42,164 nucleotides of DNA, from positions 1 to 42,164 of the forward strand of contig NZ_JHVL01000031.1 in the NCBI RefSeq assembly GCF_000620125.1. The letters are read 5' to 3'. Numbering within the stretch: position 1 is the stretch's first letter; each line of letters begins with the position of its first letter. This document shows positions 5,036 through 38,254 of the stretch, in pieces. Source of the stretch: Clostridiisalibacter paucivorans DSM 22131. GTDB taxonomy: Bacteria > Bacillota > Clostridia > Tissierellales > Clostridiisalibacteraceae. A program made the translations under genes and the position numbers. Under the pieces are notes generated by a model, which saw nothing but the letters and a program-made list of their open reading frames with translations, was not told where the DNA came from and did no database searches.

Positions 5036-5048
5036 TATAAGATTATAT

Positions 5049-5137
5049 ACTCTAGGGGTGCTTTTTAAAGCTGAGAGAGAAATTGTGTTTCTCAACCCTT
5101 TAAACCTGAACTGGTTAATCCCAGCGTAGGAAAGAGT
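5049..5137 (+). ncRNA. TPP riboswitch (THI element)
   Basis: The segment carries the hallmark THI-box blocks: AGGGGTGC near the 5' side, CTGAGAGAGAAAT, AACCCTTTAAACCTGAACTGG and TTAATCCCAGCGTAGGAAAG. The P1 stem pairs ACTCT (5049-5053) with AGAGT (5133-5137). It senses thiamine pyrophosphate and, in this family, represses when TPP is bound. It is followed 25 bases later by a strong hairpin and then thiE-thiM, so it controls by transcription termination. Confidence 0.95.
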
Positions 5138-5161
5138 TTTATTTAAAAATTATTTTAAGTG

Positions 5162-24948: not shown

Positions 24949-25119
24949 ATGGCAGATAAAGAAAAGTTTAGCATATATAAAGGTAAAAAAAAGGCTGAAT
25001 TTGAAAATCAAATAAACGGTTTAGTCTTTCCATGGAGTATGATTAGAGACGTAGATGCCATAGACACCATGAGATTCTATACCAATTCTGTTATAAACAA
25101 TGTCCAAGATATGAAATAA
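24949..25119 (+). CDS. Small 56-residue protein of unknown function
   Basis: The ORF starts at an ATG with a perfect AGGAGG seven bases upstream and ends just before a strong terminator, so it has all the marks of an expressed single-gene unit. The product begins MADKEKFSIYKGKKKAEFE. It has a charged first half, a central hydrophobic GLVFPWSMIRD segment and a helical tail ending NNVQDMK. There is no signal peptide and no cysteine. I do not recognise the family. Confidence 0.7.
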   Translation: MADKEKFSIYKGKKKAEFENQINGLVFPWSMIRDVDAIDTMRFYTNSVINNVQDMK

Positions 25120-25122
25120 ATT

Positions 25123-25164
25123 ACTAAAAAAGAGAGGCTAAAATTTTAGCCTCTCTTTTTTAGT
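25123..25164. terminator. Bidirectional terminator between the 56-aa gene and purD
   Basis: A perfect 42-base palindrome centred between 25143 and 25144. Each arm contains AAAAAAGAGAGGCTAAAA, so a T-run lies at the 3' end in both directions. It ends both the 56-aa transcript and the long purine operon. Confidence 0.93.
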
Positions 25165-25174
25165 AAAATGACTA

Positions 25175-26431
25175 CTAATCTAATTTTCCTATATCATTCC
25201 TATATTGTATACCTTGAAATTTTACTTTTTTTATATTTTTATATGCCTTTTCCCTTGCCTCGTATAGATTTTCCCCCAGTGCTGTTACTGCTAAAACCCT
25301 TCCTCCATTTGTATATATGTCTTTATCTATATTCTTTGTCCCACCATGAAATACAAGTATATCGTCATCCAAACTATCTAATCCTGATACTAATTTGCCC
25401 TTTTCATAGCTCTCGGGATATCCTCCCGATGCAGCTATTACACAGAGGGTCCTTTTATTTGACCACTTAATATCTGAGGAATTTATATTTCCATCTATAA
25501 CCTTAGTAAAGATATCTATTATATCTGATTCAAGCCTAGGGATAACTACCTCTGTCTCTGGATCACCAAACCTTACATTGAATTCTAATATCTTAGGTCC
25601 CTTTTCAGTAATCATGAATCCTATAAAAAGTACCCCTTTAAACTCAATATTTTCTCTATTAAATCCTGTCATTATTTTAGTGAGTATCTCTTTGTTTATT
25701 CTATTGGTTAATCCTTCATTTAATATGGGATTAGGAGAAAAGCATCCCATACCACCAGTGTTTAATCCTTTATCTCCATCCAATGCCTTTTTATAATCTC
25801 TGGCACTCTCCATAGGCACTATATTTTTACCATCTACAAAACACAATAAAGATACCTCTATTCCCTCTAAAAATTCCTCTATAACAATATTTTTTCCTGC
25901 ATCTCCAAATTTATTTTTTTCTATCATCTGTAAAATTGTATCTTCTGCTTCTTTATAAGTATTACATATTACTACACCTTTACCTGCTGCAAGTCCATCG
26001 GCTTTTATTACCAATGGGCAATCAAAATTATCCAAATCCCCTATTGCATCCTGTGCATTGTCATATGATTTAAATCTAGCAGTTGGGATATCATATTTTT
26101 CCATAAATCTTTTAGAAAATGTCTTGCTCCCTTCCAACATGGACGCTTTCTTATTGGGACCAAATATATTAAGTCCCTTTTCATTGAATTTATCTACTAT
26201 ACCATTTACTAGAGGTAATTCTGGGCCTACCACTGTAAGGTCAATTCCTTCTTTTAGTGCAAATCCCAACAATGTATCCACATCACCAGGGTTTATGTTT
26301 ACGCATTGGGCTATATTACTTATTCCACCGTTACCAGGGGCACAATATATCTTGGATACTTTATTACTTTGAGCTATCTTCCAAACCAATGCATGTTCCC
26401 TAGCACCATTTCCCACAACCAAAACCTTCAT
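25175..26431 (-). CDS. purD: Phosphoribosylamine-glycine ligase PurD
   Basis: Second step of purine synthesis: ATP-dependent joining of glycine to phosphoribosylamine. ATP-grasp enzyme of 418 residues with the family start MKVLVVGNGAREHALVWK, PGNGG, VGPELPLVNGI, DGLAAGKGVVI, and the metal-site LEFNVRFGDPE. Last gene of the operon, followed directly by the bidirectional terminator. Repeat element G separates it from purH. Confidence 0.97.
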   Translation of the reverse strand: MKVLVVGNGAREHALVWKIAQSNKVSKIYCAPGNGGISNIAQCVNINPGDVDTLLGFALKEGIDLTVVGPELPLVNGIVDKFNEKGLNIFGPNKKASMLEGSKTFSKRFMEKYDIPTARFKSYDNAQDAIGDLDNFDCPLVIKADGLAAGKGVVICNTYKEAEDTILQMIEKNKFGDAGKNIVIEEFLEGIEVSLLCFVDGKNIVPMESARDYKKALDGDKGLNTGGMGCFSPNPILNEGLTNRINKEILTKIMTGFNRENIEFKGVLFIGFMITEKGPKILEFNVRFGDPETEVVIPRLESDIIDIFTKVIDGNINSSDIKWSNKRTLCVIAASGGYPESYEKGKLVSGLDSLDDDILVFHGGTKNIDKDIYTNGGRVLAVTALGENLYEAREKAYKNIKKVKFQGIQYRNDIGKLD

Positions 26432-26454
26432 TTCATCACCCTTCCTTAAATGCA

Positions 26455-26612
26455 GTTAGTAATAACTAGTTAGTAGTTAGTAGTTAGTAGTTAGTAGTTA
26501 GTAGTTAGTAGTTAGTAGTTAGTAGTTAGTAGTTGAAATCCGTAGGATTTCTATTTTAATAAAGAAATTTATAAAATTTCTACCATAGGCTACGAACTAC
26601 TTACTACTAACT
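26455..26612 (+). repeat. Heptad-repeat inverted element G (purH-purD gap), nine perfect tandem heptads
   Basis: Nine exact copies of AGTTAGT occupy 26468-26530. The core holds GAAATCC-GTA-GGATTTC (26534-26551) and AAAGAAATTT/AAATTTCT, and the right arm is GGCTACGAACTACTTACTACTAACTA (26588-26613, in pieces). The element fills the 186-base gap inside the pur operon; its transcript can fold into a very long stem. Confidence 0.85.
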
Positions 26613-26617
26613 ATCTT

Positions 26618-28153
26618 CTAATGTTTAAAATGTCTCATGCCTGTAAATACCATGGCTATACCATATTTATTGGCTGCATCTATAGATTCTTGGTCTCTTA
26701 TGGAGCCTCCAGGCTGAATTATCGCAGTAATTCCTGCTTTAAATGCTGCCTCCACACAATCGGGAAATGGGAAAAATGCGTCCGATGCCATAACTGCCCC
26801 TTTAGTATTTTGTCCAGCTTGTTTTATTGCATTTTCCAATGCCCATATCCTACTAACCTGTCCTGGACCTACTGCCACTGTCCCCTTATCCTTAGCCAAT
26901 ACTATGCCATTGGATTTAGTGTTTTTTACAGCTTTCCATCCGAACAATAAATCTTCCAGCTCTTTATCACTAGGCTTTCTATCAGTAACTACTTTTAAAT
27001 CACCCTTAAGTAATTCTTCGTTTCTATCCTGTACTAATATACCGCCCAATACCTTCTTCATATCTCTAGTAACATATTTTTTTCTTTTTATATTGTCCAA
27101 TTTAAGTATTCTTATATTCTTTTTACCTTTTAATATGTCAAGTGCTTCATCTGTATATGAAGGAGCTATTACTACCTCTATAAATATCTTATTTATCATT
27201 TTAGCAGTTTCTTTGTCTATTTCCTCATTTGAAGCTACTATCCCTCCAAATATAGATATCTTATCTCCTTCATATGCCTTTTTAAATGCCTCTTTAACAG
27301 AGTTACCACTCCCTATCCCACAGGGATTAGCATGTTTTACAGCTACTACCGTAATATCATCATATTCCTTCAATATCTCCAATGCTCCATTGGTATCATT
27401 TATATTATTGAAGGACAACTCTTTACCATGGAATTGTACCGCATCAGAAAGGGTCCCATGAACTTCTATCATATCTTCATAAAATGCAGCTTTTTGATGT
27501 GGATTTTCTCCATATCTTAAATCCTGTCTTTTTTCATATGTCAAAGATATAAAATCAGGAAATTCAATACCTGCTATATCATTAAAGTATGATGAAATCA
27601 ATGTATCATATGTACTGGTATGCTGAAATACCTTTGCAGCCAAATATGTTTTAGTCTTTTCATCTATATCTCCATCTGCTTTAAGTTTCTCAATCACCGT
27701 ATTATAGTCTTTGGGATCTATAACAACTGTAACAAATTTATAGTTTTTAGCTGCAGCTCTAAGCATAGATGGACCACCTATGTCTATATTCTCTATTATA
27801 TCCATATGTTTAGAATTTTCATTTAACAGTGTTTCCTTAAATGGGTACAGATTGTTTATAACCATATCTATAGGCTGTATATTCAAATCGCCCATAGTGT
27901 CCATATGCTCACTATTATCCCTTAATGCCAATAGTCCTCCATGTATCCTGGGATGCAAAGTCTTTACTCTGCCATCAAAGCACTCTGGAAATTCTGTTAT
28001 ATCTGATACATCTATAGTCTCTATACCCGCTTCCTTAAGCTTCTTAGCTGTACCACCTGTAGATACAATTTCCCAATCCATAGCTACAAGTTCCTTCACA
28101 AATTCAACTATACCTGTTTTATCATAAACACTTACCAATGCCCTTCTTTTCAT
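26618..28153 (-). CDS. purH: Bifunctional AICAR transformylase / IMP cyclohydrolase PurH
   Basis: Last two steps to IMP. The N-terminal IMP cyclohydrolase (about 1-195) has RALVSVYDKTGI, STGGTAKKL and KTLHPRIHGGLL. The C-terminal transformylase has the folate-site KHANPCGIGSG and ends in the family's FTGMRHFKH. Length 511 is standard. AAAGGAG precedes the ATG; purN lies 15 bases upstream. Confidence 0.97.
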   Translation of the reverse strand: MKRRALVSVYDKTGIVEFVKELVAMDWEIVSTGGTAKKLKEAGIETIDVSDITEFPECFDGRVKTLHPRIHGGLLALRDNSEHMDTMGDLNIQPIDMVINNLYPFKETLLNENSKHMDIIENIDIGGPSMLRAAAKNYKFVTVVIDPKDYNTVIEKLKADGDIDEKTKTYLAAKVFQHTSTYDTLISSYFNDIAGIEFPDFISLTYEKRQDLRYGENPHQKAAFYEDMIEVHGTLSDAVQFHGKELSFNNINDTNGALEILKEYDDITVVAVKHANPCGIGSGNSVKEAFKKAYEGDKISIFGGIVASNEEIDKETAKMINKIFIEVVIAPSYTDEALDILKGKKNIRILKLDNIKRKKYVTRDMKKVLGGILVQDRNEELLKGDLKVVTDRKPSDKELEDLLFGWKAVKNTKSNGIVLAKDKGTVAVGPGQVSRIWALENAIKQAGQNTKGAVMASDAFFPFPDCVEAAFKAGITAIIQPGGSIRDQESIDAANKYGIAMVFTGMRHFKH

Positions 28154-28168
28154 GTTAATACAACTCCT

Positions 28169-28792
28169 TTATTCTAATATAACCTTTCTTCCATCCAACT
28201 TTATTTTTCCATCACAATATAATTTCACTGCCTTTGGTAGTAATCTATGTTCTATCTTAAGGACCTTTTGTTGTACATCTTCTGGCGTATCATTTGGAGA
28301 GATATAAGCTGTATCTTGTAGTATTATGGCACCTGTATCTGTCCCCTTGTCTACAAAATGTACTGTAGCTCCTGTGACTTTAACTCCATAATCTACCACT
28401 GCCCTATGAACCCTAATGCCATAGAATCCCTTTCCACAAAAACTTGGTATTAAGGAAGGGTGTATATTTATTATTCTGTTTTGGTAGTACTCTATAAATC
28501 CTTCACTGAGAATATTTATATACCCTGCTAATATTACCAACTCCACATCTCTATCTTGAAGCTCTTTGATTATGGCCTTATCCATATCTTCTGTACTTTG
28601 ATATTTACTCTTATCTATAAATATGCTATCTATGCCTTTCTTTTCTGCCCTTACTAAACCATAGGCATTTTCTTTATTGGATATAACCACCTTAATGCTA
28701 CCATTTATATAGCCTGTATCTACATTATCTATTATAGATTGTAGATTAGTTCCACCACCTGATATTAGTACTCCTATATTTACTGATGACAT
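28169..28792 (-). CDS. purN: Phosphoribosylglycinamide formyltransferase PurN
   Basis: Transfers a formyl group from 10-formyl-tetrahydrofolate to GAR. The Rossmann start IGVLISGGGTNLQSII and the catalytic N109, H111 and D152 (INIHPSLIPSF; DKGTDTGA) are in place. Length 207. The start codon lies inside purM (13-base overlap), so the two are translationally coupled. Confidence 0.97.
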   Translation of the reverse strand: MSSVNIGVLISGGGTNLQSIIDNVDTGYINGSIKVVISNKENAYGLVRAEKKGIDSIFIDKSKYQSTEDMDKAIIKELQDRDVELVILAGYINILSEGFIEYYQNRIINIHPSLIPSFCGKGFYGIRVHRAVVDYGVKVTGATVHFVDKGTDTGAIILQDTAYISPNDTPEDVQQKVLKIEHRLLPKAVKLYCDGKIKLDGRKVILE

Positions 28793-29826
28793 ATGTCGAT
28801 TCCTTCCTTATCCTTTATAACTCTACCTATAATATGGGCATCTTCGCCCCTTTCCTTGATAAATTCCATAACATTGTCCACATCTCTGGTATCTACTGCC
28901 ATAACTAGACCTATCCCCATATTAAATGTGGAATACATTTCATCTATATCTATATTTCCTGCCTTTTTTATGAAATCAAATATATTAGGGATTTGTACAT
29001 CTCTCATATCTATATCTGCTCCATATCCATCTGGTAACATCCGAGGTATGTTTTCATAAAAACCTCCCCCAGTTATATGACTTACTCCCTTTATATTAAA
29101 TGATTTTATTACATCATATATAGGATTTATATATATTTTTGTAGGCACAATCAATGCCTCTCCCAATGTGGTACCCAATTCTTCAAAATATTCATCTATA
29201 TCATAATTATTTATATCAAATAATACTTTTCTCACTAAAGAGAATCCATTGCTATGGAGTCCACTAGATGGTATCCCTATAAGGGTATCTCCTTCTGATA
29301 TATTACTTCCATTTATTAGATTTTTCTTGTCTACTATTCCCACTGTAAATCCTGCTAAATCATATTCTCCTTCACTATATATGCCAGGCATTTCAGCAGT
29401 TTCTCCACCGATGAGGGCTGCACCTGCTTTTTTACATCCTGATGATATACCCTTCACTATCTCTGATACCTTTTCAGGAATCAACTTTCCTGTGGCAATA
29501 TAATCTAAGAAAAATAGGGGTTTAGCCCCTTGACACAGTACATCATTTACACACATAGCCACACAATCTTGTCCCACAGTATCATGTTTATCCATCATAA
29601 ATGCAATCTTAATCTTTGTACCAACTCCATCAGTTCCTGCAACTAATATGGGTTCATCATAGCTTCCCATCTCCAGTGCAAACATACCTCCAAAACCGCC
29701 TATATCAGAAATTACTCCTTTAGTAAAGGTTTCTTTAACATACTTTTTCATCAACTTAACCGATTCATATCCTGCTTTTACATCTACTCCCGCATCTTTA
29801 TAGCTTATTCCCTTATCCTTCATCAT
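28780..29826 (-). CDS. purM: Phosphoribosylformylglycinamidine cyclo-ligase (AIR synthetase) PurM
   Basis: Closes the imidazole ring, giving AIR. It starts with ISYKDAGVDVKAG and shows the AIRS motifs GVGTKIK, CVNDVLCQGAKPLFFLDY, GGETAEMPG, SSGLHSNGFSLVR and HITGGGFYEN. Two ATGs lie side by side behind AGGAGG; the second (29823) has the better spacing. Length 348 is normal. Repeat element H lies upstream. Confidence 0.97.
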   Translation of the reverse strand: MMKDKGISYKDAGVDVKAGYESVKLMKKYVKETFTKGVISDIGGFGGMFALEMGSYDEPILVAGTDGVGTKIKIAFMMDKHDTVGQDCVAMCVNDVLCQGAKPLFFLDYIATGKLIPEKVSEIVKGISSGCKKAGAALIGGETAEMPGIYSEGEYDLAGFTVGIVDKKNLINGSNISEGDTLIGIPSSGLHSNGFSLVRKVLFDINNYDIDEYFEELGTTLGEALIVPTKIYINPIYDVIKSFNIKGVSHITGGGFYENIPRMLPDGYGADIDMRDVQIPNIFDFIKKAGNIDIDEMYSTFNMGIGLVMAVDTRDVDNVMEFIKERGEDAHIIGRVIKDKEGIDICHQ

Positions 29827-29840
29827 TACACCTCCTGTTA

Positions 29841-29986
29841 TTTAGTCCATAGTTCGTAGTTCGTAGTCCGTAGTTCTTAGTTAAAGAAATTGAAATTCAC
29901 AGAATTTCTACCATGCCCTACTAACTACTAACTACTAACTACTAACTACTAACTATTAACTATTGACTACTAACTACGGACTAATT
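29841..29986 (+). repeat. Heptad-repeat inverted element H (purF-purM gap)
   Basis: The left arm TTAGTCC/TAGTTCG/TAGTTCG/TAGTCCG/TAGTTCT (29841-29880), core AAAGAAATTGAAATT with AGAATTTCTACCAT, and right arm of seven or more CTAACTA/ACTACTA heptads ending CTACGGACTAATTA (29919-29986). The core matches that of element G (AAAGAAATT and AATTTCTACCAT). The right end encodes the purF stop codon. Confidence 0.8.
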
Positions 29987-31366
29987 ACCTTCTACTCTAG
30001 GTACTTCCATGGGATAGTTTCCATCGAAGCATGCCTTACAGTATCCCTTCTTTTCTCCTGTTGCCTCTGACAATCCTTTGATAGTGAGAAAATGTAAAGT
30101 ATCTGCATTTATCATATCCCTTATTTCATCTGTAGTATAATTAGCTGCAACCAAGTTCTCTCTATAGGGTGTATCTATGCCAAAATAACAAGGATATTTT
30201 ACTGGAGGTGAACTTACCCTTACATGAACTTCTTTAGCACCTGCCTTTTTCAACATATCCACAATCCTTTTACTAGTTGTTCCCCTTACTATGGAATCAT
30301 CTACCATTACTACCCTTTTTCCTTCTACATTTTCCTTCAACACATTCAATTTGATTTTAACTCCCTGCTCCCTCAATGCTTGAGTAGGCTGTATGAATGT
30401 CCTGCCTATATACTTGTTTTTAATAAGTCCTATCCCAAAGGGAATACCTGATTCTTCTGCATATCCTATAGCAGCAGGGGTCCCACTATCGGGTACACCT
30501 ATAACCACATCCGCCTCTACTGGTGCCTCTCTAGCTAACATCTTTCCAGCTTCACTCCTAGATAGATATACATTTATTCCATCAATTGTGCTATCAGGTC
30601 TTGCAAAGTATATATATTCAAACACACACATCTTTCTATTACACCATTTGTCGCTCTTTATGGTTTCTATACCATTTTCGTCTATTATTACTATTTCGCC
30701 AGGGTCTACATCTCTTACAAACTCTGCACCAATAGTATCCAATGCACAGCTTTCCGATGCCAACACATATCCATCCTCAAACTTGCCTAAACAAAGAGGT
30801 CTTAATCCTAAAGAATCTCTTACACCTATAAGCTTGTCTTCGGACACTATTACCAAAGAATATGCACCTTTTAACACTTCTATAGTATTTTTTATAGATT
30901 TAATTATATCTTTATTGTGGTATCTAGCTATTAAATTGGCTATTACTTCTGTATCTATAGTAGTCTGAAATACTACCCCGTCATCTTCCATTATCTCTCT
31001 TAATGCTTCAGAATTAACTAAACTACCGTTATGGGCCAACGCTATATTTCCCCTTTTATATCTAACTACCAATGGTTGGGCATTTTCTATGAGACTCTCT
31101 CCAAATGTAGAATATCGCACATGGCCTATCCCTATATTTCCACTTAGACTATCTAATGTCTTGTCCTCGAATACCTCTGGAGCAAGCCCCATCCCTTTAT
31201 GATGGGATATTTTCCCTTGGTCGCTTACGGCAATACCTGCACTTTCCTGTCCTCTGTGTTGAAGAGCATAGAGCCCATAATATACCATCTTTGATACATT
31301 CCCTTTATTAGCATAAACCCCTACCACTCCGCACTCTTCTTTTAATTTATCCATTTCTTCAAACAA
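29981..31366 (-). CDS. purF: Amidophosphoribosyltransferase PurF
   Basis: Committed step: PRPP plus glutamine to phosphoribosylamine. An 11-residue propeptide (MFEEMDKLKEE) precedes the nucleophile C12 (ECGVVGVY), as in the Bacillus-type enzyme that is processed to expose the cysteine. Candidate 4Fe-4S ligands of that type are present (MCVFEY, PCYFGID, and the pair in GYCKACFDG). The PRPP loop is VVMVDDSIVRGTT. The start is a TTG with GGGGTG six bases upstream. The final Gly-Asn-stop reads into repeat element H. Confidence 0.96.
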   Translation of the reverse strand: MFEEMDKLKEECGVVGVYANKGNVSKMVYYGLYALQHRGQESAGIAVSDQGKISHHKGMGLAPEVFEDKTLDSLSGNIGIGHVRYSTFGESLIENAQPLVVRYKRGNIALAHNGSLVNSEALREIMEDDGVVFQTTIDTEVIANLIARYHNKDIIKSIKNTIEVLKGAYSLVIVSEDKLIGVRDSLGLRPLCLGKFEDGYVLASESCALDTIGAEFVRDVDPGEIVIIDENGIETIKSDKWCNRKMCVFEYIYFARPDSTIDGINVYLSRSEAGKMLAREAPVEADVVIGVPDSGTPAAIGYAEESGIPFGIGLIKNKYIGRTFIQPTQALREQGVKIKLNVLKENVEGKRVVMVDDSIVRGTTSKRIVDMLKKAGAKEVHVRVSSPPVKYPCYFGIDTPYRENLVAANYTTDEIRDMINADTLHFLTIKGLSEATGEKKGYCKACFDGNYPMEVPRVEGN

Positions 31367-31400
31367 TGTTTACACCCCTTTCCAAGGATAAAATATCTAA

Positions 31401-32102
31401 CTATTGGATTCTGCCCAACACTTCAAGATATGCCTCTTCTACATTGCCCATATCCCTTCTAAATCTATCCTTGTCTAATTTTTCATTAGTTTTTGCATCC
31501 CATAACCTACAAGTATCTGGTGATATCTCATCTGCCAATATAACTTCTCCATCAAATAAACCAAATTCTAGTTTAAAATCTATAAGTTTTATTCCTTTTT
31601 GTCCAAAGAATTCCATCAAGGTATCATTTACCATAAATGCATACTTCTTTATGATATCCAATTGTTCATCAGTAGCCAACTCCATAGCCTTTATATGATA
31701 TTCGTTTATCATTGGATCTCCCAAATCATCATCTTTGTAGGAAAACTCCAATACTGTAGACTTCATTATTGTACCCTCTTTAAGTCCCAATCTCTTAGCA
31801 AGGGAACCAGCTGCTACATTTCTAACTATAACCTCTAATGGCAATATCTTTACTGCTTTAACTATCATCTCTTTGTCACTTATGATCTCTTCAAAGTGAT
31901 TTTTAACGCCCTTTTCTTCTAGCAATTTAAATAATAATCCAGACATCTTATTGTTTACTATGCCCTTCCCAACTATTGTGCCCTTCTTTTCTCCATTAAA
32001 TGCCGTTGCATCATCTTTATATTCAACTATATATCTCTTTTCATCATTAGTTTTAAATACCTTTTTCGCCTTACCTTCATATAACATATCTAATTTTTCC
32101 AT
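31401..32102 (-). CDS. purC: SAICAR synthase PurC
   Basis: Couples aspartate to CAIR. The 233 residues start with the family's [11 protein letters not shown] and contain [38 protein letters not shown] and [21 protein letters not shown] ribosome binding site lies eight bases before the ATG. The 34-base gap to purF is short; the 143-base gap to purE is filled by repeat element I. Confidence 0.97.
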
Positions 32103-32122
32103 GAATTTTTCCTCCCTTTATT

Positions 32123-32262
32123 TTAGTTCTTGGTTCTTAGCTCTTAGTTCTTAGTTCTTAGTTCTTAGTTCTTAGCTCTTAGTTCTTAGCTCTTAGCTAA
32201 AAGATAAAATGCGTAGGATTGCTTCCTTCAACTATCGACTGTGAACTACAGGCTACTAACTC
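32123..32262 (+). repeat. Heptad-repeat inverted element I (purE-purC gap), eleven tandem heptads
   Basis: Eleven heptads of the TTAGTTC dialect run without a break from 32123 to 32199 (TTAGTTC, TTGGTTC, TTAGCTC, four TTAGTTC, TTAGCTC, TTAGTTC, TTAGCTC, TTAGCTA). A core with GCGTAGGATTGC and a shorter right arm (AACTATCGACTGTGAACTACAG, about 32230-32251, GGCTACTAACTC after it) follow. The right arm encodes the last residues and stop of purE. Confidence 0.85.
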
Positions 32263-32740
32263 TCTTCTGTATCTCTCTATCTTTTTTCTCAACTTCCTTT
32301 GCCATATCTTCTCTATATGTCTTTAATTTTGTCTTTAATTCATCATATTTTAACGACAACATTTCTATTGCTAGAAGTGCTGCGTTTTCAGCTCCATTAA
32401 TTGCTACTGTGGCCACAGGTATCCCCTTTGGCATTTGTACTATGGACAATAGCGAGTCTAATCCATCCATTGTAGATGACTTTATTGGTAATCCAATCAC
32501 TGGCAGTGTAGTCTCTGCTGCCAATACTCCTCCCAAATGGGCCGCCTTTCCTGCAGCTGCTATTATTACTTCTATCCCTCTTTTTTCAACATTCTTTCCA
32601 AATTCCATGGCCTTGTCTGGAGTTCTATGGGCTGATATAACCCTAACCTCTGCATCTACACCAAATTCCTTTAATATCTTGAGTCCCTTTTCCACCACTG
32701 GAAAATCTGAATCACTTCCCATCACTATAGCAACCTTCAT
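32246..32740 (-). CDS. purE: 5-(carboxyamino)imidazole ribonucleotide mutase PurE
   Basis: Makes CAIR. Class I-like features are MGSDSD, VISAHRTPDK, AGKAAHLGGVLAAETTLPVIGLP, MDGLDSLLSIVQMP and GAENAALLA. Length 164. The usual partner PurK is not in this operon, so either purK lies elsewhere or this enzyme takes CO2 directly; sequence alone does not settle it. The last residues (VSSL-stop) are encoded by repeat element I. It lies 21 bases after purL. Confidence 0.95.
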   Translation of the reverse strand: MKVAIVMGSDSDFPVVEKGLKILKEFGVDAEVRVISAHRTPDKAMEFGKNVEKRGIEVIIAAAGKAAHLGGVLAAETTLPVIGLPIKSSTMDGLDSLLSIVQMPKGIPVATVAINGAENAALLAIEMLSLKYDELKTKLKTYREDMAKEVEKKDREIQKRVSSL

Positions 32741-32761
32741 TTTTTAACCTCCCTTTATTTA

Positions 32762-35700
32762 CTAATAAAAATACCTTACGCCTGCTTCAAATATCCTTTG
32801 GTCTTTATTTCCCGGTACATTTTTAGCAATATCTCTTCCAATCCTTTCCGAGTGGGCCATTTTACCCAATATCCTTCCATCAGGGCTAGTTATGCCCTCT
32901 ATTCCATAGACAGATCCATTGGGGTTAGAGCCTTCAACATACTGGGTAGCTATTTGCCCATTATCTCTAAGTTTTTTCAACATATCTTCATTGGCCACAA
33001 ACCTTCCCTCTCCATGGGATACCGCAATCGTATGGATATCTCCCACCTTTGTATTATTGAACCATGGAGATAAATTTGATGTGATTTTAGTTTGTACCAT
33101 AGTAGATACATGTCGCCCTATATTGTTAAATGTCAATGTTGGACAATCTTTGTCTAAATCAACTATCTCCCCAAAGGGTACCAATCCTAATTTTATCAAT
33201 GCCTGAAATCCATTACATATTCCCAACATAAGTCCATCTCTATTTTTTATAAATTCCATAATCTCTTCTCTTATCCTAGGATTCCTAAATACTGTAGCTA
33301 TAAATTTCCCTGATCCATCAGGTTCATCCCCTGCACTAAATCCACCAGGTATAGCTATTATTTGACTGTTTCTTATACCTTTAACCATTTCCTCTATGGA
33401 ATATTGTATATCTTTAGATGAAAGATTTTTGAATACAAAAGTTTCTGGTATTCCTCCTGCTCGTTCAAATGCTCTAGCTGTATCATATTCACAATTTGTT
33501 CCTGGAAACACTGGTACAAATACCCTAGGTTTTGCTATCTTTATATTTGAAGAACTTTTAATATTCTTTCGTGTACTTACTAAATTGGCTTCTTCTACAT
33601 CAGTTTTATTTTCTTCCTCTATGGGGAATATATCATTCAATGGTTCAATCCAATTATCTATGGCACTATTTAAATCTATTTTTTCTCTATTTATTTCTAT
33701 AACGGCATCAACAATGGTATCACCCAATACTCTGTATTCTACACCTTGTAACATTTCATTTAGATTATCTTCCCCTTTGACCTCTAATATTATTGCACCA
33801 TAATGAGGATTGAAAAGATCTACGTCTTCTATATTCTCAATAAATTTCATTCCTATTTTATTTCCAAAGCTCATTTTACTTAATGCGGCTGCCATACCTC
33901 CAAATCCTACGGTGTAAGCTGAAAGTATTCTTTTTTCACTTATAAGTTTATATATCCTCTCATATCCTTTAGTTAATTTTTTAAAGTCAACCATTCCATA
34001 GTCATCAACAGATACAGGAATCAATATCACCTTACTATGGTATTCCTTGAACTCTGGCGATACAATATTTCTAGCATCAGATACATTCACAGCAAAACTC
34101 ACCAATGTGGGAGGGACATGTAAATCATTAAATGTACCTGACATACTATCCTTTCCTCCTATAGCTGGTATCTCTAGATTCTTCTGAGCATAAAATGCTC
34201 CCAGCAATGCACTCAATGGTTTTCCCCATTTTTTAGGATCTTTGCCCAGCTTTTCAAAATATTCCTGTAATGTAAGCCTTATACCCTTATAATCTCCACC
34301 TAATGCTACAATTTTGGCTATAGAATGAATTACTGCATATAATCCTCCATGGAATGGGCTCCATTTAGAAAGATTAGGATCAAATCCATATGTCATAATT
34401 GTACATGTATTGGTTTCTCCTATGGTCATAGGCACTTTTGCAACCATACCATCTGTGGGAGTCAATTGATATTTTCCACCAAAGGGCATGAGTACAGACC
34501 CTGCTCCTATACTACTATCAAACCTCTCCACCAATCCCTTTTGACATGCCACATTTAGATGCTTCAGATTATCCATCCACTGTTTGCCTATATTGTCTTT
34601 TGAATTTATATGCTCAGGTAATCTGTCCATATAATTTTCTCTACTAGGTTCAGTTACTACAGCAGTAGTATGTTGAGTAATACCATTTGTATCTAAAAAT
34701 GTCCTACTAATATCCAATATGGTATTTCCTCTCCAATTCATCTTCAATCTATTATTATCAGTCACCTTAGCAACTACTGTGGATTCTAGATTTTCTTCTT
34801 TGCAATATTTAGTAAACTCTTCTAGATCATCATTGTCTATAACTACCGCCATTCTCTCTTGAGATTCAGATATAGCAAGCTCTGTTCCATCTAATCCTTC
34901 ATACTTCTTAGTAACCTTATCTAGATCTATTTCAAGACTATCTGCCAATTCACCTATAGCTACCGATACCCCTCCAGCACCGAAATCATTACATTTTTTT
35001 ATTAGTCTACTTAAATTTGAATTTCTAAATAGCCTTTGGATTTTTCTCTCTGTTGGAGGATTACCTTTTTGTACCTCTGCTCCACATGTATATATAGATT
35101 CTTCAGTATGTTCCTTAGATGATCCTGTAGCTCCTCCACATCCGTCTCTTCCTGTTCTGCCACCAACTAGGAGTATTATATCTCCCTTTTGTGGCTTTTC
35201 CCTTACCACATTTTCCTTTGGTGCAGCCGCTATTACTGCTCCTATTTCCATCCTCTTAGCTATATAATCATTGTGATATATCTCTGCTACCTGCCCTGTA
35301 GCCAATCCTATTTGATTACCATATGAGCTATATCCCTTTGCTGCATCTATAGTTATTCTTCGTTGAGGTAATTTCCCTGACAATGTCTCTTCTATAGGTG
35401 TTCTAGGGTCTCCACTCCCTGTAACTCTCATGGCCTGATATACATATGACCTGCCTGATAATGGGTCCCTTATGGCACCTCCTAGACATGTTGCCGCCCC
35501 TCCAAAGGGTTCTATTTCTGTGGGATGATTATGTGTTTCATTTTTAAACATGATTAACCATTTTTGATATTCTCCATTTACATCCACATCCACCATAATA
35601 CTAGCTGCATTTATCTCATCAGATACTTCTAAGTCATCCAATTTTCCTTTTTTTCTTAACTCCTTCATGGCTATGGTGGCTAAATCCATGAGACATACAT

Positions 35701-36523
35701 CTTTTTTCCTATCTTGGTACAAATATTTTCTAGATTCTAAATATTCATTATATGCTTTTCTTATTACCTCATTATATTCTCCATCTTCAAATATAATCTT
35801 GTCTATATTGGTTTGAAAGGTAGTATGTCTACAATGATCTGACCAATAAGTGTCTATTACCTTTAGCTCTGTTATAAAAGGCTCCCTATTTTCCTCATCT
35901 TTAAAATATCTTTGGCAGAACTTCAAATCTTCTATATCCATAGCAAATCCAAAGACATCTATTAATCCCATTAATTTATCCATATCCATCTCTGTGAATC
36001 CTTCTACTATATCCACATCTTCTGGTATATCATATTGGAAGTCTAAAGTATCTGGCTTATCTAGCAAAGCCTCCTTTGAATCCACTGGATTTATATAATA
36101 TGACTTTATCTTTCCAAATTCACCTTCAGATATATTGCCTTTTAATACTATAACCTTAGCCACATGTACTTTGGGTACTGGACCCTGGGTAAGTATCTGA
36201 ACACATTGGGCTGCCCAGTCTGCCCTCTGGTCATATTGTCCTGGCAAATACTCCACTGCAAACACTTTATCTGAATTATCTATATCTATATTTTCGTAAT
36301 ATACATTATCTATAGTAGATTCAGAAAGTATAGTATTTACGGCTTCCATATAATCTTTATCAGATATATTGGACATATCATACCTATTTATAACCCTTAC
36401 AGATTCCAATCCATCAATACTTAAATTTTCCTTAAAATCGTTATAAAGATGAACGGCCTCTACATCATAACCTAACCTTTTTTCAACAAAAGCCCTTCTA
36501 ACATTGCCACACATAAAAGACAC
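32762..36523 (-). CDS. purL: Phosphoribosylformylglycinamidine synthase PurL, large single-chain form
   Basis: Converts FGAR, glutamine and ATP to FGAM. At 1253 residues it fuses the PurS-like N-terminal region, two AIRS-type halves (with ETHNHPTEIEPFGGAATC, GRTGRDGCGGATGSS, FGAGGVSVAIGELADS, AIGGKDSMSG) and a C-terminal glutamine amidotransferase. The amidotransferase starts near residue 995 (VFVPVFPGTNCEYDT) with nucleophile cysteine near 1100 in LGICNGFQAL and the partner SHGEGRF. Bacilli instead use separate PurS, PurL and PurQ. It lies second in the operon after the permease. Confidence 0.96.
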   Translation of the reverse strand: MSFMCGNVRRAFVEKRLGYDVEAVHLYNDFKENLSIDGLESVRVINRYDMSNISDKDYMEAVNTILSESTIDNVYYENIDIDNSDKVFAVEYLPGQYDQRADWAAQCVQILTQGPVPKVHVAKVIVLKGNISEGEFGKIKSYYINPVDSKEALLDKPDTLDFQYDIPEDVDIVEGFTEMDMDKLMGLIDVFGFAMDIEDLKFCQRYFKDEENREPFITELKVIDTYWSDHCRHTTFQTNIDKIIFEDGEYNEVIRKAYNEYLESRKYLYQDRKKDVCLMDLATIAMKELRKKGKLDDLEVSDEINAASIMVDVDVNGEYQKWLIMFKNETHNHPTEIEPFGGAATCLGGAIRDPLSGRSYVYQAMRVTGSGDPRTPIEETLSGKLPQRRITIDAAKGYSSYGNQIGLATGQVAEIYHNDYIAKRMEIGAVIAAAPKENVVREKPQKGDIILLVGGRTGRDGCGGATGSSKEHTEESIYTCGAEVQKGNPPTERKIQRLFRNSNLSRLIKKCNDFGAGGVSVAIGELADSLEIDLDKVTKKYEGLDGTELAISESQERMAVVIDNDDLEEFTKYCKEENLESTVVAKVTDNNRLKMNWRGNTILDISRTFLDTNGITQHTTAVVTEPSRENYMDRLPEHINSKDNIGKQWMDNLKHLNVACQKGLVERFDSSIGAGSVLMPFGGKYQLTPTDGMVAKVPMTIGETNTCTIMTYGFDPNLSKWSPFHGGLYAVIHSIAKIVALGGDYKGIRLTLQEYFEKLGKDPKKWGKPLSALLGAFYAQKNLEIPAIGGKDSMSGTFNDLHVPPTLVSFAVNVSDARNIVSPEFKEYHSKVILIPVSVDDYGMVDFKKLTKGYERIYKLISEKRILSAYTVGFGGMAAALSKMSFGNKIGMKFIENIEDVDLFNPHYGAIILEVKGEDNLNEMLQGVEYRVLGDTIVDAVIEINREKIDLNSAIDNWIEPLNDIFPIEEENKTDVEEANLVSTRKNIKSSSNIKIAKPRVFVPVFPGTNCEYDTARAFERAGGIPETFVFKNLSSKDIQYSIEEMVKGIRNSQIIAIPGGFSAGDEPDGSGKFIATVFRNPRIREEIMEFIKNRDGLMLGICNGFQALIKLGLVPFGEIVDLDKDCPTLTFNNIGRHVSTMVQTKITSNLSPWFNNTKVGDIHTIAVSHGEGRFVANEDMLKKLRDNGQIATQYVEGSNPNGSVYGIEGITSPDGRILGKMAHSERIGRDIAKNVPGNKDQRIFEAGVRYFY

Positions 36524-36565
36524 CTTCCTTTTATATTATTTATCCTTTTTTAAAAGAGATAGAGT

Positions 36566-36606
36566 ATAAAAGCCCGAATATAGAATAATCTATCTCGGAC
36601 TTTTAT
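36566..36606 (-). other. Intercistronic hairpin between the permease and purL
   Basis: On the minus strand ATAAAAG(T)CCGA pairs with TCGG(G)CTTTTAT over a bulged loop. It is not followed directly by a T-run, so full termination is unlikely. It could stabilise the upstream mRNA or reduce read-through into purL. Confidence 0.5.
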
Positions 36607-36625
36607 AATTGAGTTGGATTTATAT

Positions 36626-37921
36626 TTATTCTATAAAGAATTTAGCTACAAATAATATCGCCAAGAAAACTGACAATGGTGATACCTCTTTAAATTTACC
36701 TGTTAATAATTTAAGTAATACATAAGAAATCATCCCAAAAACAATACCTTCAGCTATACTATATGCAAGGGGCATCATTATAATAGTCAAAAATGCAGGT
36801 ATTGACTCAGTATAATCATCAAAATCTATATTTTTAATAGGAGACATCATAAATAGTCCCACCAATACCAATGCAGGTGCAGTAGCAGCCTCTGGTACCA
36901 TAGTAAATAATGGAGAAAAGAATAACGCTATACCAAACATTCCTGCTGCGGATAATGCAGTAAGTCCTGTCCTTCCACCTTCTGCAACCCCTGCTGCACT
37001 TTCCACATAAGTAGTAACTGTACTTGTTCCTAAACATGCCCCCACAGTAGTCCCTATGGAATCGGCAAAAAGGGCCTGCTTAGCATTGGGAACTTCTCCC
37101 TTTTCATTTAATAATCCTGCTTTAGCTGATACACCTATAAGGGTACCAACTGTATCAAACATATCTACAAATAAAAATGTAAATAATATGATCAACATTT
37201 TCATGGAAAATATCTGATCCCATTGAAATTTAAACATTATGGGACTCAATGATGGTGGTAAACTAGCCACCTGTGCAGGTACTTTTGTTATGCCCATAGG
37301 AATACCTATAAGAGTAGTCACTACTATACCTATAAGCAATGCTCCCTTTATATTTTTAGCCACTAAAAGACCTGTTATAACAAGGCCTATAATCGCAAGA
37401 AGTGCCTTTCCTTCAGTAATATTTCCCAATGCCAATATAGTTCCATCTCCAGTTTGTATAACTCCTGCATTAACTAATCCTATAAATGCTATAAATAATC
37501 CAATTCCTACAGAGATAGCATTTTTTATGCTCACTGGTATACAATTTATTATAGCTTCTCTAACATTCAAAAATGTAAGTATTATAAATATAATTCCCTC
37601 TAAAAATACCGCTGTAAGGGCAAACTCCCAAGAATACCCCATACCTGCAACCACAGTAAATGCGAAAAATGCATTTAGACCCATACCTGGTGCCAATGCA
37701 AAGGGCAATTTAGCATAAATAGCCATAACCAAAGTAGCTATAACTGCGGATAAAGCTGTAGCAGTAAATACTGCTCCAAAATCCATCCCAACGCCTTCAC
37801 TGGAAAGCATCAATGGATTAACCACTAATATATAAGCCATAGTCATAAATGTGGTAATCCCTGCCATAATTTCTGTTTTTACATCAGTGTTGTGTTCTTT
37901 AAGTTTGAAAAATGAATCCAT
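36626..37921 (-). CDS. NCS2-family purine (guanine/hypoxanthine or adenine) permease, PbuG/AzgA-like
   Basis: Nucleobase/proton symporter. After a short start MDSFFKLKEHNTDVKTE come about 12-14 membrane segments with AzgA-type landmarks: AGITTFMTMAYILVVNP, PFALAPGMGLNAFFAF, FLFVDMFDTVGTLIGV and GTSTVTTYVESAAGVAEGGR. An open frame continues 22 codons upstream, but that part lies in the riboswitch terminator. AGGAGG lies eight bases before the ATG at 37921, so the protein is 431 residues. It is first in the pur operon and directly behind the tandem riboswitch, so base import and synthesis are controlled together. Confidence 0.93.
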   Translation of the reverse strand: MDSFFKLKEHNTDVKTEIMAGITTFMTMAYILVVNPLMLSSEGVGMDFGAVFTATALSAVIATLVMAIYAKLPFALAPGMGLNAFFAFTVVAGMGYSWEFALTAVFLEGIIFIILTFLNVREAIINCIPVSIKNAISVGIGLFIAFIGLVNAGVIQTGDGTILALGNITEGKALLAIIGLVITGLLVAKNIKGALLIGIVVTTLIGIPMGITKVPAQVASLPPSLSPIMFKFQWDQIFSMKMLIILFTFLFVDMFDTVGTLIGVSAKAGLLNEKGEVPNAKQALFADSIGTTVGACLGTSTVTTYVESAAGVAEGGRTGLTALSAAGMFGIALFFSPLFTMVPEAATAPALVLVGLFMMSPIKNIDFDDYTESIPAFLTIIMMPLAYSIAEGIVFGMISYVLLKLLTGKFKEVSPLSVFLAILFVAKFFIE

Positions 37922-37960: not shown

Positions 37961-38024
37961 CTCAAAAAATGCACAAAGCCCCAGCAAGTAGGAACCATAA
38001 GTGAAACCTACCCGCCCGGGCTTT
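37961..38024 (-). terminator. Riboswitch-linked terminator before the NCS2 permease
   Basis: On the minus strand AAAGCCC (38018-38024) pairs with GGGCTTT (37975-37981), and the inner CGGGTAGG pairs with CCTACTTG. The sequence after the stem, TTTGTGCATTTTTTG, is T-rich. The 5' arm of the stem is the conserved AAAAGCCCGGG end of the ykkC-type aptamer, so ligand binding and terminator formation exclude each other. That makes an ON switch for this aptamer. Confidence 0.85.
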
Positions 38025-38110
38025 TCTCCCCTCGGTGTAGTATTACATTAAGTAATACTTGTACCACTCGGACCAGTCAAGGTAATACCTTCGGAACCCT
38101 AGATACACTT
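38011..38110 (-). ncRNA. ykkC-class aptamer, probably a PRPP riboswitch (subtype 2b)
   Basis: The minus strand carries the ykkC conserved blocks in order: TCTAGGGTTCCG, CTGGTCCGAG, a variable stem-loop (GTATTAC/GTAATAC), TACACCGAGGGGAGAAAAGCCCGGG. GTGTA near the 5' end can pair with TACAC. ykkC RNAs divide into guanidine-I, ppGpp (2a), PRPP (2b) and nucleoside-diphosphate (2c) sensors. The position directly behind a guanine aptamer and ahead of purine genes is the known arrangement of PRPP members. The subtype is therefore an inference from context, not from the discriminating base. Confidence 0.85.
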
Positions 38111-38112
38111 TC

Positions 38113-38181
38113 ACCCATAGTCAGGTAATTTACGGTTACCTGGTAGAAACACCTCAGCCATATTCCGAGATATATATGAGT
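38113..38181 (-). ncRNA. Guanine/hypoxanthine (purine) riboswitch aptamer
   Basis: On the minus strand P1 pairs ACTCATA with TATGGGT, P2 pairs CTCGG with CTGAG around loop AATATGG, and P3 pairs CAGGTAA with TTACCTG around CCGTAAA. The junction holds TTTCTACC and GACTATG. The residue that picks the ligand is C in GACTATG (U in adenine sensors), so guanine or hypoxanthine is expected. It lies only a few bases from the ykkC-type aptamer. Confidence 0.96.
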
Positions 38182-38225
38182 TATTATTATATTTTTTCAA
38201 AAAATTTATACCAATTACTAACTAC

Positions 38226-38254
38226 ATGATAACAAATGATTTTTTTAAAGTCAA
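38226..38254 (-). promoter_or_regulatory. Promoter of the purine operon
   Basis: On the minus strand TTGACT (38254-38249), a 17-base spacer and TATCAT (38231-38226) form a good sigma-A promoter. Transcription starts near 38219, about 40 bases before the guanine aptamer. A short repeat relic (TAGTTAGTAATTGG, minus strand, about 38211-38224) spans the start. Confidence 0.65.

Follow-up and report, generated by a model that had tools for sequence, protein, structure and literature searches.

A predicted guanine-PRPP tandem riboswitch ahead of a permease and the purine operon most likely works by three-strand exchange around a shared strand

The leader of the purine operon of Clostridiisalibacter paucivorans DSM 22131 is very probably a guanine-PRPP tandem riboswitch of the IMPLY kind, in which three strands would exchange partners about a common one, j (38119-38112). 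Strands i and j are the two strands of the guanine aptamer's P1 stem, and the third, k, follows UUU in the loop of the terminator; k resembles i, and j can pair with either. The stretch of DNA that was analysed, hereafter the window, comprises the 42,164 nucleotides of contig NZ_JHVL01000031.1, and the leader lies on its minus strand.

The tandem arrangement itself was already known, as an earlier note on this DNA had stated. Of 257 PRPP RNAs reported by Sherlock et al. (2018; PMC5912903), 127 are tandems, and the guanine-PRPP tandem is described there as the sole case in which two aptamers with different ligands sit on one expression platform; IMPLY-like logic, under which expression is off solely when guanine is present and PRPP absent, was measured in the Bacillus megaterium tandem and the mechanism left open. 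Typically, 5-7 nt separate the P1 stems of such tandems. Knappenberger et al. (2018; PMC6031431) solved the structure of the PRPP aptamer, found its P0 helix and proposed P0 and guanine P1 to be mutually exclusive, on the basis of a single predicted structure. A 2022 review (PMC9481103) counts 192 tandems and considers the precise structural changes yet to be established. The earlier note had also held that the exact pairing scheme could be worked out in this leader. The scheme is worked out below, although its core, P0 against guanine P1, was already in print.

Materials and Methods

Relatives were collected with RF00442, which matched 44 of 391 genomes of the window's class, and with R1, a covariance model built here from ten PRPP-type RNAs, the window's among them. 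R1 had hits in 132 of 249 genomes in the window's order and in 225 of 348 in the class of Alkalihalophilus pseudofirmus (the genome of locus L009), other ykkC types being included in both counts. Fetching mostly favoured the best-scoring places, which makes the sample uneven. Searches over 76 and 100 loci returned 79 and 118 matches, or 189 without repeats, 187 of which had readable anchors; L030 and L002 were left out for lack of them. Tandems were called by a regular expression for the guanine aptamer, which yielded 120, or 121 after hand changes (degenerate L044:2490 taken out, L055:515 and L076 put in), both figures being lower bounds; tandems with odd junctions were left in the 'other' group (L043, L055:1501, L110:201, L117, L120:201, L125, L127, L132, L134, L136 and L175). 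A pattern scan with an allowed gap of 8-15, which does not admit the spacing of 7 seen in the window, yielded four loci, one of them (L009) a false match. To assign first genes, tblastn was run with the proteins of the window and one Xpt as queries. Positions 5, 6 and 96-111 of the PRPP-type aptamer, and with them the numbering of the spacer between the P1 stems, were fixed against the primer sequences of PMC6031431; positions 48, 49, 75 and 77 were mapped, less directly, through the RF00442 alignment. PMC5912903, PMC6031431 and PMC9481103 are cited throughout from excerpts of these papers.

Results

Two aptamers share one terminator

Between 37800 and 38400, RF00167 (Purine) and RF00442 (ykkC type) were the only Rfam families reported up to an E value of 10; a weaker, overlapping hit from the same clan was omitted from that listing. 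RF00167 matched 38199-38098 (-) with 93.2 bits (gathering score 37), and RF00442 matched 38113-38011 (-) with 74.7 bits (gathering score 63) [Table 1]. Five bases (38112-38108) separate the guanine and PRPP P1 stems, a spacing found in 105 of the 120 tandems, and no terminator lies between the two aptamers. The one intrinsic terminator (38024-37975; -29.9 kcal/mol, z -6.42, with 0 of 200 shuffles as good) overlaps the PRPP aptamer, is common to both aptamers and is followed by six U at 37969-37964. The earlier note's picture of guanine and PRPP aptamers in tandem, a few bases apart and with a single common terminator, was thereby borne out. The interval that it gave, 38011-38181, marks the right site and is too short: it ends at aptamer position 101, omitting A103, G104, G105, the 3' strand of P0 (38006-37996) and the greater part of the terminator. 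The functional leader spans about 38182-37964 (-). Three promoter-like sites of the kind seen upstream of it occur in the region versus 2.0 in shuffles, making this site weak evidence alone.

Table 1 Features of the leader and of the operon that it precedes (window coordinates)
Feature	Coordinates	Strand	Basis or remarks
Promoter-like site	38226..38254	-	TTGACT, 17 bases, TATCAT, with TG before TATCAT; 10/12 consensus matches
Guanine (purine-class) aptamer, predicted	38098..38199	-	RF00167; core 38181-38113, C74 equivalent at 38120
Strand i, 5' strand of guanine P1 (ACUCAUA)	38175..38181	-	RF00167 match, folding
Strand j, 3' strand of guanine P1 (UAUGGGU), also outer 5' strand of P0	38113..38119	-	
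GAAAG spacer between P1 stems: GAAA, inner P0 bases, then G6 of the PRPP site	38108..38112	-	Numbering by comparison with primers in PMC6031431
Probable PRPP-type ykkC aptamer with minimal P0 (38114-38109 with 38006-38001)	38001..38114	-	
G96 equivalent, published PRPP-versus-ppGpp marker	38016	-	Comparison with primers in PMC6031431
Strand k, 3' strand of P0 (UUUCACUUAUG), in terminator loop	37996..38006	-	11-base complementarity to 38119-38109, G-U included
Shared intrinsic terminator stem-loop	37975..38024	-	U run 37969-37964
NCS2 nucleobase permease, 431 aa, first operon gene	36626..37921	-	PF00860, E 5.6e-49
purL, fused FGAM synthase	32762..36523	-	TIGR01857, 1880 bits
purE, purC, purF, purM, purN, purH, purD, in this order	25175..32740	-	NCBIfam
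Terminator-like hairpin directly 3' of purD, probable operon end	25121..25166	-	

Ligand class of the aptamers

The first aptamer carries C at the equivalent of purine-aptamer position 74, which we take to confer specificity for guanine and not adenine, and is predicted to be the guanine type of RF00167. One of the 121 tandems, before purL at L121:1168-1286, has U in place of C at this position; U would presumably favour adenine there, or the aptamer may simply be decaying.

The second aptamer is probably a PRPP-type ykkC RNA (2b), as judged from residues with published bearing on ligand choice; these were used because the only model of the ykkC group reported from Rfam 15 bears the name Guanidine-I. 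Position 49, within GAGUGG, is a pyrimidine (U), where guanidine-I riboswitches have A, and position 96 is G, a base that ppGpp riboswitches lack or replace by another (PMC6031431). The ligand contacts A5, G6, G48, C75, C77, purine 101 (here G), A103, G104 and G105 are all present, as are the P0 tails, which form 11 bp between 38119-38109 and 38006-37996. That the RNA should instead be a guanidine-I or a ppGpp riboswitch is highly improbable. In favour of that reading the sole ykkC-type match does bear the Guanidine-I name and exceeds its gathering score; nevertheless, U at 49 together with P0 led us to reject a guanidine-I identity, G96 a ppGpp identity, and the purine-synthesis context speaks against both. 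R1, too, separates the three groups, with 91-125 bits for the ten PRPP-type RNAs (which are, however, its training set), 78-87 for six ppGpp-like and 32-56 for eight guanidine-I-like RNAs, and 42 bits for the other ykkC RNA of the genome (25 loci scored in all). Position 49 was C in 67 of 72 Clostridia tandems and U in 2, an inexact count, made with an expression that left 25 of 223 relatives unread and serving as a caution only.

One strand is complementary to two others

In the window, j (UAUGGGUG, 38119-38112) and the adjoining AAA form an 11-base duplex, counting G-U pairs, with UUU and k; the sequence of k (CACUUAU) is similar to that of i (ACUCAUA). Throughout the 120 tandems (85 distinct j/k pairs), the best P0 duplex takes between three and seven of the seven guanine P1 bases of j, with 3, 4, 5, 6 and 7 bases used in 8, 24, 34, 11 and 8 of the 85 pairs, respectively. 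The P0 duplex energy of these pairs was -8.55 versus -6.52 for 60 other R1 hits, a comparison that was set aside since the latter are a mixture of PRPP, ppGpp-like and missed tandem RNAs.

The 107 tandems with the window's spacing, amounting to 74 distinct i/j/k triples, were then compared position by position, d1 to d8 being counted outward from AAA. P0 pairs were found at d1-d8 in 74, 71, 68, 71, 67, 57, 19 and 34 of the 74 triples, and P1 pairs at d2-d8 in 70, 69, 73, 74, 74, 74 and 74; the window's own P0 pairs at d7 and d8 are thus not general. When k was slid by 1-3 bases, the rate of P0 pairing at d2-d6 dropped from 0.91 to 0.26-0.49, and sliding i brought P1 pairing from 0.98 to 0.17-0.65 (82 triples, with a longer key, in both cases). 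Throughout the sample, j has thus kept its complementarity to two other strands.

Covariation was partial. P0 pairs at d2-d6 numbered 334 of 370 versus 321.8 after swapping k within clades (p 0.0002, in a permutation that ignores relatedness within clades), the excess residing almost wholly at d2 (71 versus 59.6, p 0.0002), where j is U, C or G. The within-clade p was 0.04 at d1 and d4 and 1.0 at d3 and d5-d8, positions other than d2 hardly varying. At d6, C in j faces G in k in 22 triples and U faces A in 24, a split that by eye follows largely the division between Bacilli and Clostridia and so would represent one deep change.

In computed folding, P1 and P0 come near balance on average before the terminator forms

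Predicted folding of the ligand-free window RNA was followed as its 3' end advanced. P1 and P0 stood at 0.59 and 0.06 with the end at 38001, 0.43 and 0.42 at 37999, 0.02 and 0.88 at 37996, 0.00 and 0.96 at 37993, 0.13 and 0.82 at 37987, and 0.73 and 0.15 at 37983. P0 was thus already low, and P1 back, ahead of formation of the terminator stem, which reached 0.94 with the end at 37979. The free-energy gap (P0 minus P1), computed with the core of each helix forced, ran through -2.1, -5.4, -1.4 and -0.9 kcal/mol at 37996, 37993, 37990 and 37987, and then +0.4, -0.2, +7.1 and +10.8 kcal/mol at 37984, 37981, 37978 and 37975. In the 107 tandems, with ten nucleotides of k out, the means were 0.42 for P1 and 0.46 for P0, and P0 was ahead in 53; with 4 or 12 bases of k out, P1 was ahead on average. 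On average, therefore, the computation places P1 and P0 near balance for a short interval ahead of terminator formation, as a ligand-driven choice between them requires. At full-length equilibrium the ligand-free window is predicted to be off by 10.8 kcal/mol, in secondary-structure energies that leave aside tertiary contacts and ligands, so that a default-on state would have to be kinetic.

Genes under the predicted gate

The permease, for which NCBIfam gave no match and whose start was taken as ATG 37921 (after AGGAGG) rather than the upstream TTG of the ORF list, is followed by PurL, E, C, F, M, N, H and D, each of which exceeds a NCBIfam cut-off [Table 1]. A permease and eight pur genes were what the earlier note had placed downstream, and the two-input gate that it foresaw over them, still a prediction, agrees with the residue tests above and with PMC5912903 and PMC6031431. 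Other terminator-like sites on the minus strand in 25000-37900 lie within genes only (29530-29516 in purM, and two overlapping sites at 37813-37786 in the permease gene), and one gate over all nine genes is therefore likely; terminator-like sites on both strands numbered 11 versus 5.3 expected, and the intergenic gaps of up to 186 bases could hold weak promoters. Guanine-only riboswitches of the same genome precede an xpt fragment (L004), guaB, and an adenine deaminase gene cut by the locus end (L004-L006 together), and on this distribution the window's gate is predicted to serve import and IMP synthesis.

The xpt fragment (L004:365-742, contig C10) encodes 126 of about 191 residues before a stop and scores 170.4 bits versus a cut-off of 177. 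At an E value of 0.001, RF00442 matched two places only in the window's genome. The second of these ykkC-type RNAs (L002:1494-1615, contig C13; 36.9 bits to RF00442) stands before a NUDIX hydrolase gene, which is the context of ykkC subtype 2c (PMC5912903). A TPP riboswitch (86.3 bits) occupies 5044-5149 (+) of the window. The leader had a single plasmid match, covering 33% of the query, and no match among phages.

The first gene after the 121 tandems was purL in 39, xpt in 29, purE in 25, an NCS2 permease in 15, purC in 11, and none was assigned in 2. All 29 xpt cases fell among the 49 Bacilli tandems fetched, including L075:1501-1636 and L173:296-432, whose Xpt proteins exceed both NCBIfam cut-offs. 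Directly after xpt, L173 has a gene, truncated at the end of the locus, that matches pbuX below the cut-off, and the following gene of L075 looks alike. The text excerpts of PMC5912903 name de novo genes up to IMP and codA, with no xpt or permease among them, and our literature search found no paper joining a PRPP riboswitch with xpt. These predicted Bacilli tandems before a salvage gene are new here. In eight loci (L106, L109, L111, L114, L119, L120, L122 and L137), a single cluster contains two PRPP riboswitches separated by about 0.9-2.3 kb; the first precedes purC or the permease gene and the second, where assigned, purL or purE. In four PRPP riboswitches that come second in their gene cluster (L042:2515-2638, L110:1113-1228, L115:1371-1487 and L137:1277-1395), the guanine aptamer is by eye partly lost, with P2 only remaining or the junction gone.

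Relatives with a mini-hairpin in place of the guanine aptamer

In one family of the window's order (f2), many PRPP RNAs come without a guanine aptamer and have a hairpin of 5-8 bp that touches the PRPP tail. Forty extra regions were fetched and 39 used (one was a repeat), providing 37 distinct upstream regions; a sequence-blind rule found a hairpin in 23 of them, whereas 60 shuffles averaged 2.2 and never exceeded 6. In 22 of the 24 loci listed, the hairpin starts with (U)GCUCA, which is how the guanine P1 strand usually reads in this order. Applied to the Clostridia RNAs called non-tandem earlier, the same rule gave 8 of 40 (null 2.4, maximum 5), to Bacilli non-tandem RNAs 1 of 22 (2.1), and to tandems 9 of 62 (6.3) and 6 of 35 (4.1).

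Pairing was compared in a mini-hairpin set of 25 loci from six genera (L219, L231 and 23 others; first gene purC in 22, purE in 2, unassigned in 1), which was drawn with a CTCA filter chosen after seeing the sequences, supplemented with three earlier loci and cleared of L048 by hand. P0 pairs at d1-d3 were present in 15, 14 and 13 of 15 distinct cases. At d4 they were present in 7 of 15 versus 50 of 54 tandems (Fisher p 0.0002) and at d5 in 3 of 15 versus 38 of 54 (p 0.0007), both tests ignoring relatedness within clades; d6 showed no difference (10 of 15 versus 33 of 54). Bacilli RNAs without a guanine aptamer were also low at d4 and d5 (8 and 7 of 20), and the remaining Clostridia group, which contains missed tandems, had 33 and 31 of 45. 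With d1-d3 kept and d4-d5 low, the part of k that resembles i tends, on these alignments, to leave together with the sensor, and the part that PRPP needs stays. Nascent folding of the 25 loci placed the hairpin at 0.82-0.83 at d4-d5 and P0 at 0.06.

The mini-hairpins appear to be surviving P1 stems of lost guanine aptamers, acting like the guanine-bound state; alternatively, they may be 5' stabilising hairpins that merely pair with the same tail. We put at about even the chances of the broader reading, namely that the guanine aptamer acts through the state of P1 only and that the relics of this one family are permanently wired 'bound', the gate having become a plain PRPP switch. If this is true, the relics and the xpt tandems would be natural variants of the gate for a direct test of the IMPLY mechanism. 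The putative mini-hairpin relatives are new here: in the PRPP riboswitch literature searched, the relevant papers in excerpt, we found neither this form nor a family-wide test of P0/P1 exchange.

Discussion

The strands described above suggest the following order of events, with ligands and output as predicted for the window. During transcription, j would first pair with i, closing the guanine aptamer through P1. As k (38006-37996) exits the polymerase, its UUUC end could dock onto the unpaired GAAA next to P1 and drive i off, and the resulting P0 would serve both as the floor of the PRPP site and as the anti-terminator of the guanine switch. With guanine bound, P1 would keep j, P0 would be blocked and the PRPP site would be incomplete; k and the P3 strand would then fold into the terminator, turning the genes off. 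With PRPP bound, P0 and P3 would be locked, P1 and the terminator dismantled, and the genes on.

Two other explanations were weighed against this scheme. The aptamers might do no more than crowd each other sterically, with no exchange of a shared strand, a possibility offered in PMC5912903. The five nucleotides between P1 stems in most tandems leave little room, and crowding could also explain why guanine loosens the 5' tail of the PRPP aptamer in the in-line probing of PMC5912903, but it does not need k to be like i, and P0 pairs at d2-d6 are present at 91% in register and at 26-49% out of it. The weak pairing at d4-d5 where the guanine aptamer is gone likewise goes against it, and we consider crowding as the whole mechanism unlikely. 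Somewhat less unlikely, though still a minority prospect, is that the output is instead NOT guanine AND PRPP, with the terminator as the stable end state whenever PRPP is absent. The ligand-free equilibrium, which favours P1 and the terminator by the 10.8 kcal/mol computed above, would fit this output, as would the fall of P0 to 0.15 by 37983; against it stand the passage of P0 through 0.82-0.96 between 37996 and 37987, the mutually exclusive helices with their one shared terminator, and the measured B. megaterium relative, which approximates IMPLY (PMC5912903). Three-strand exchange with IMPLY-like output is thus the reading that we prefer.

In this form, a proposal made from one predicted structure becomes a pairing scheme whose strands are named and which is upheld in about 120 tandems. 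To it are added a possible toehold, two helices that computation places near balance, and relatives without the sensor, which serve as a natural negative control. Its occurrence before xpt and permease genes suggests that the gate controls salvage, a PRPP-consuming route, as well as de novo synthesis.

By its sequence, the window element is a predicted member of the published guanine-PRPP IMPLY gates. As in the codA tandem of B. megaterium (PMC5912903), a guanine aptamer lies directly 5' of a PRPP aptamer with a short spacer, and one shared terminator and a predicted IMPLY logic are common to both. The gene there is codA, whereas the window has a permease and the whole pur operon; the logic was measured there, whereas in the window it is predicted, and the P0/P1 exchange is not worked out in the excerpted codA text. 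The singlet PRPP riboswitch (ykkC 2b) of Heliobacterium modesticaldum purB (PMC5912903) has the same PRPP pocket and gives read-through with PRPP by blocking a terminator, but, unlike the window, it has no guanine aptamer upstream; conversely, the singlet guanine riboswitches of the window's own genome (L004, L005 and L006) are of the same guanine class and have no adjacent PRPP aptamer. The tandem of Thermoanaerobacter mathranii (6CK5, PMC6031431) shares with the window the 5' tail GUGAAAG, a 3' tail with GGUUUCAC, and G96, the window's aptamer differing from it in U at 49 and G at 101. The exclusion of guanine P1 by P0 was proposed there from one predicted structure and is followed here through 74 strand triples.
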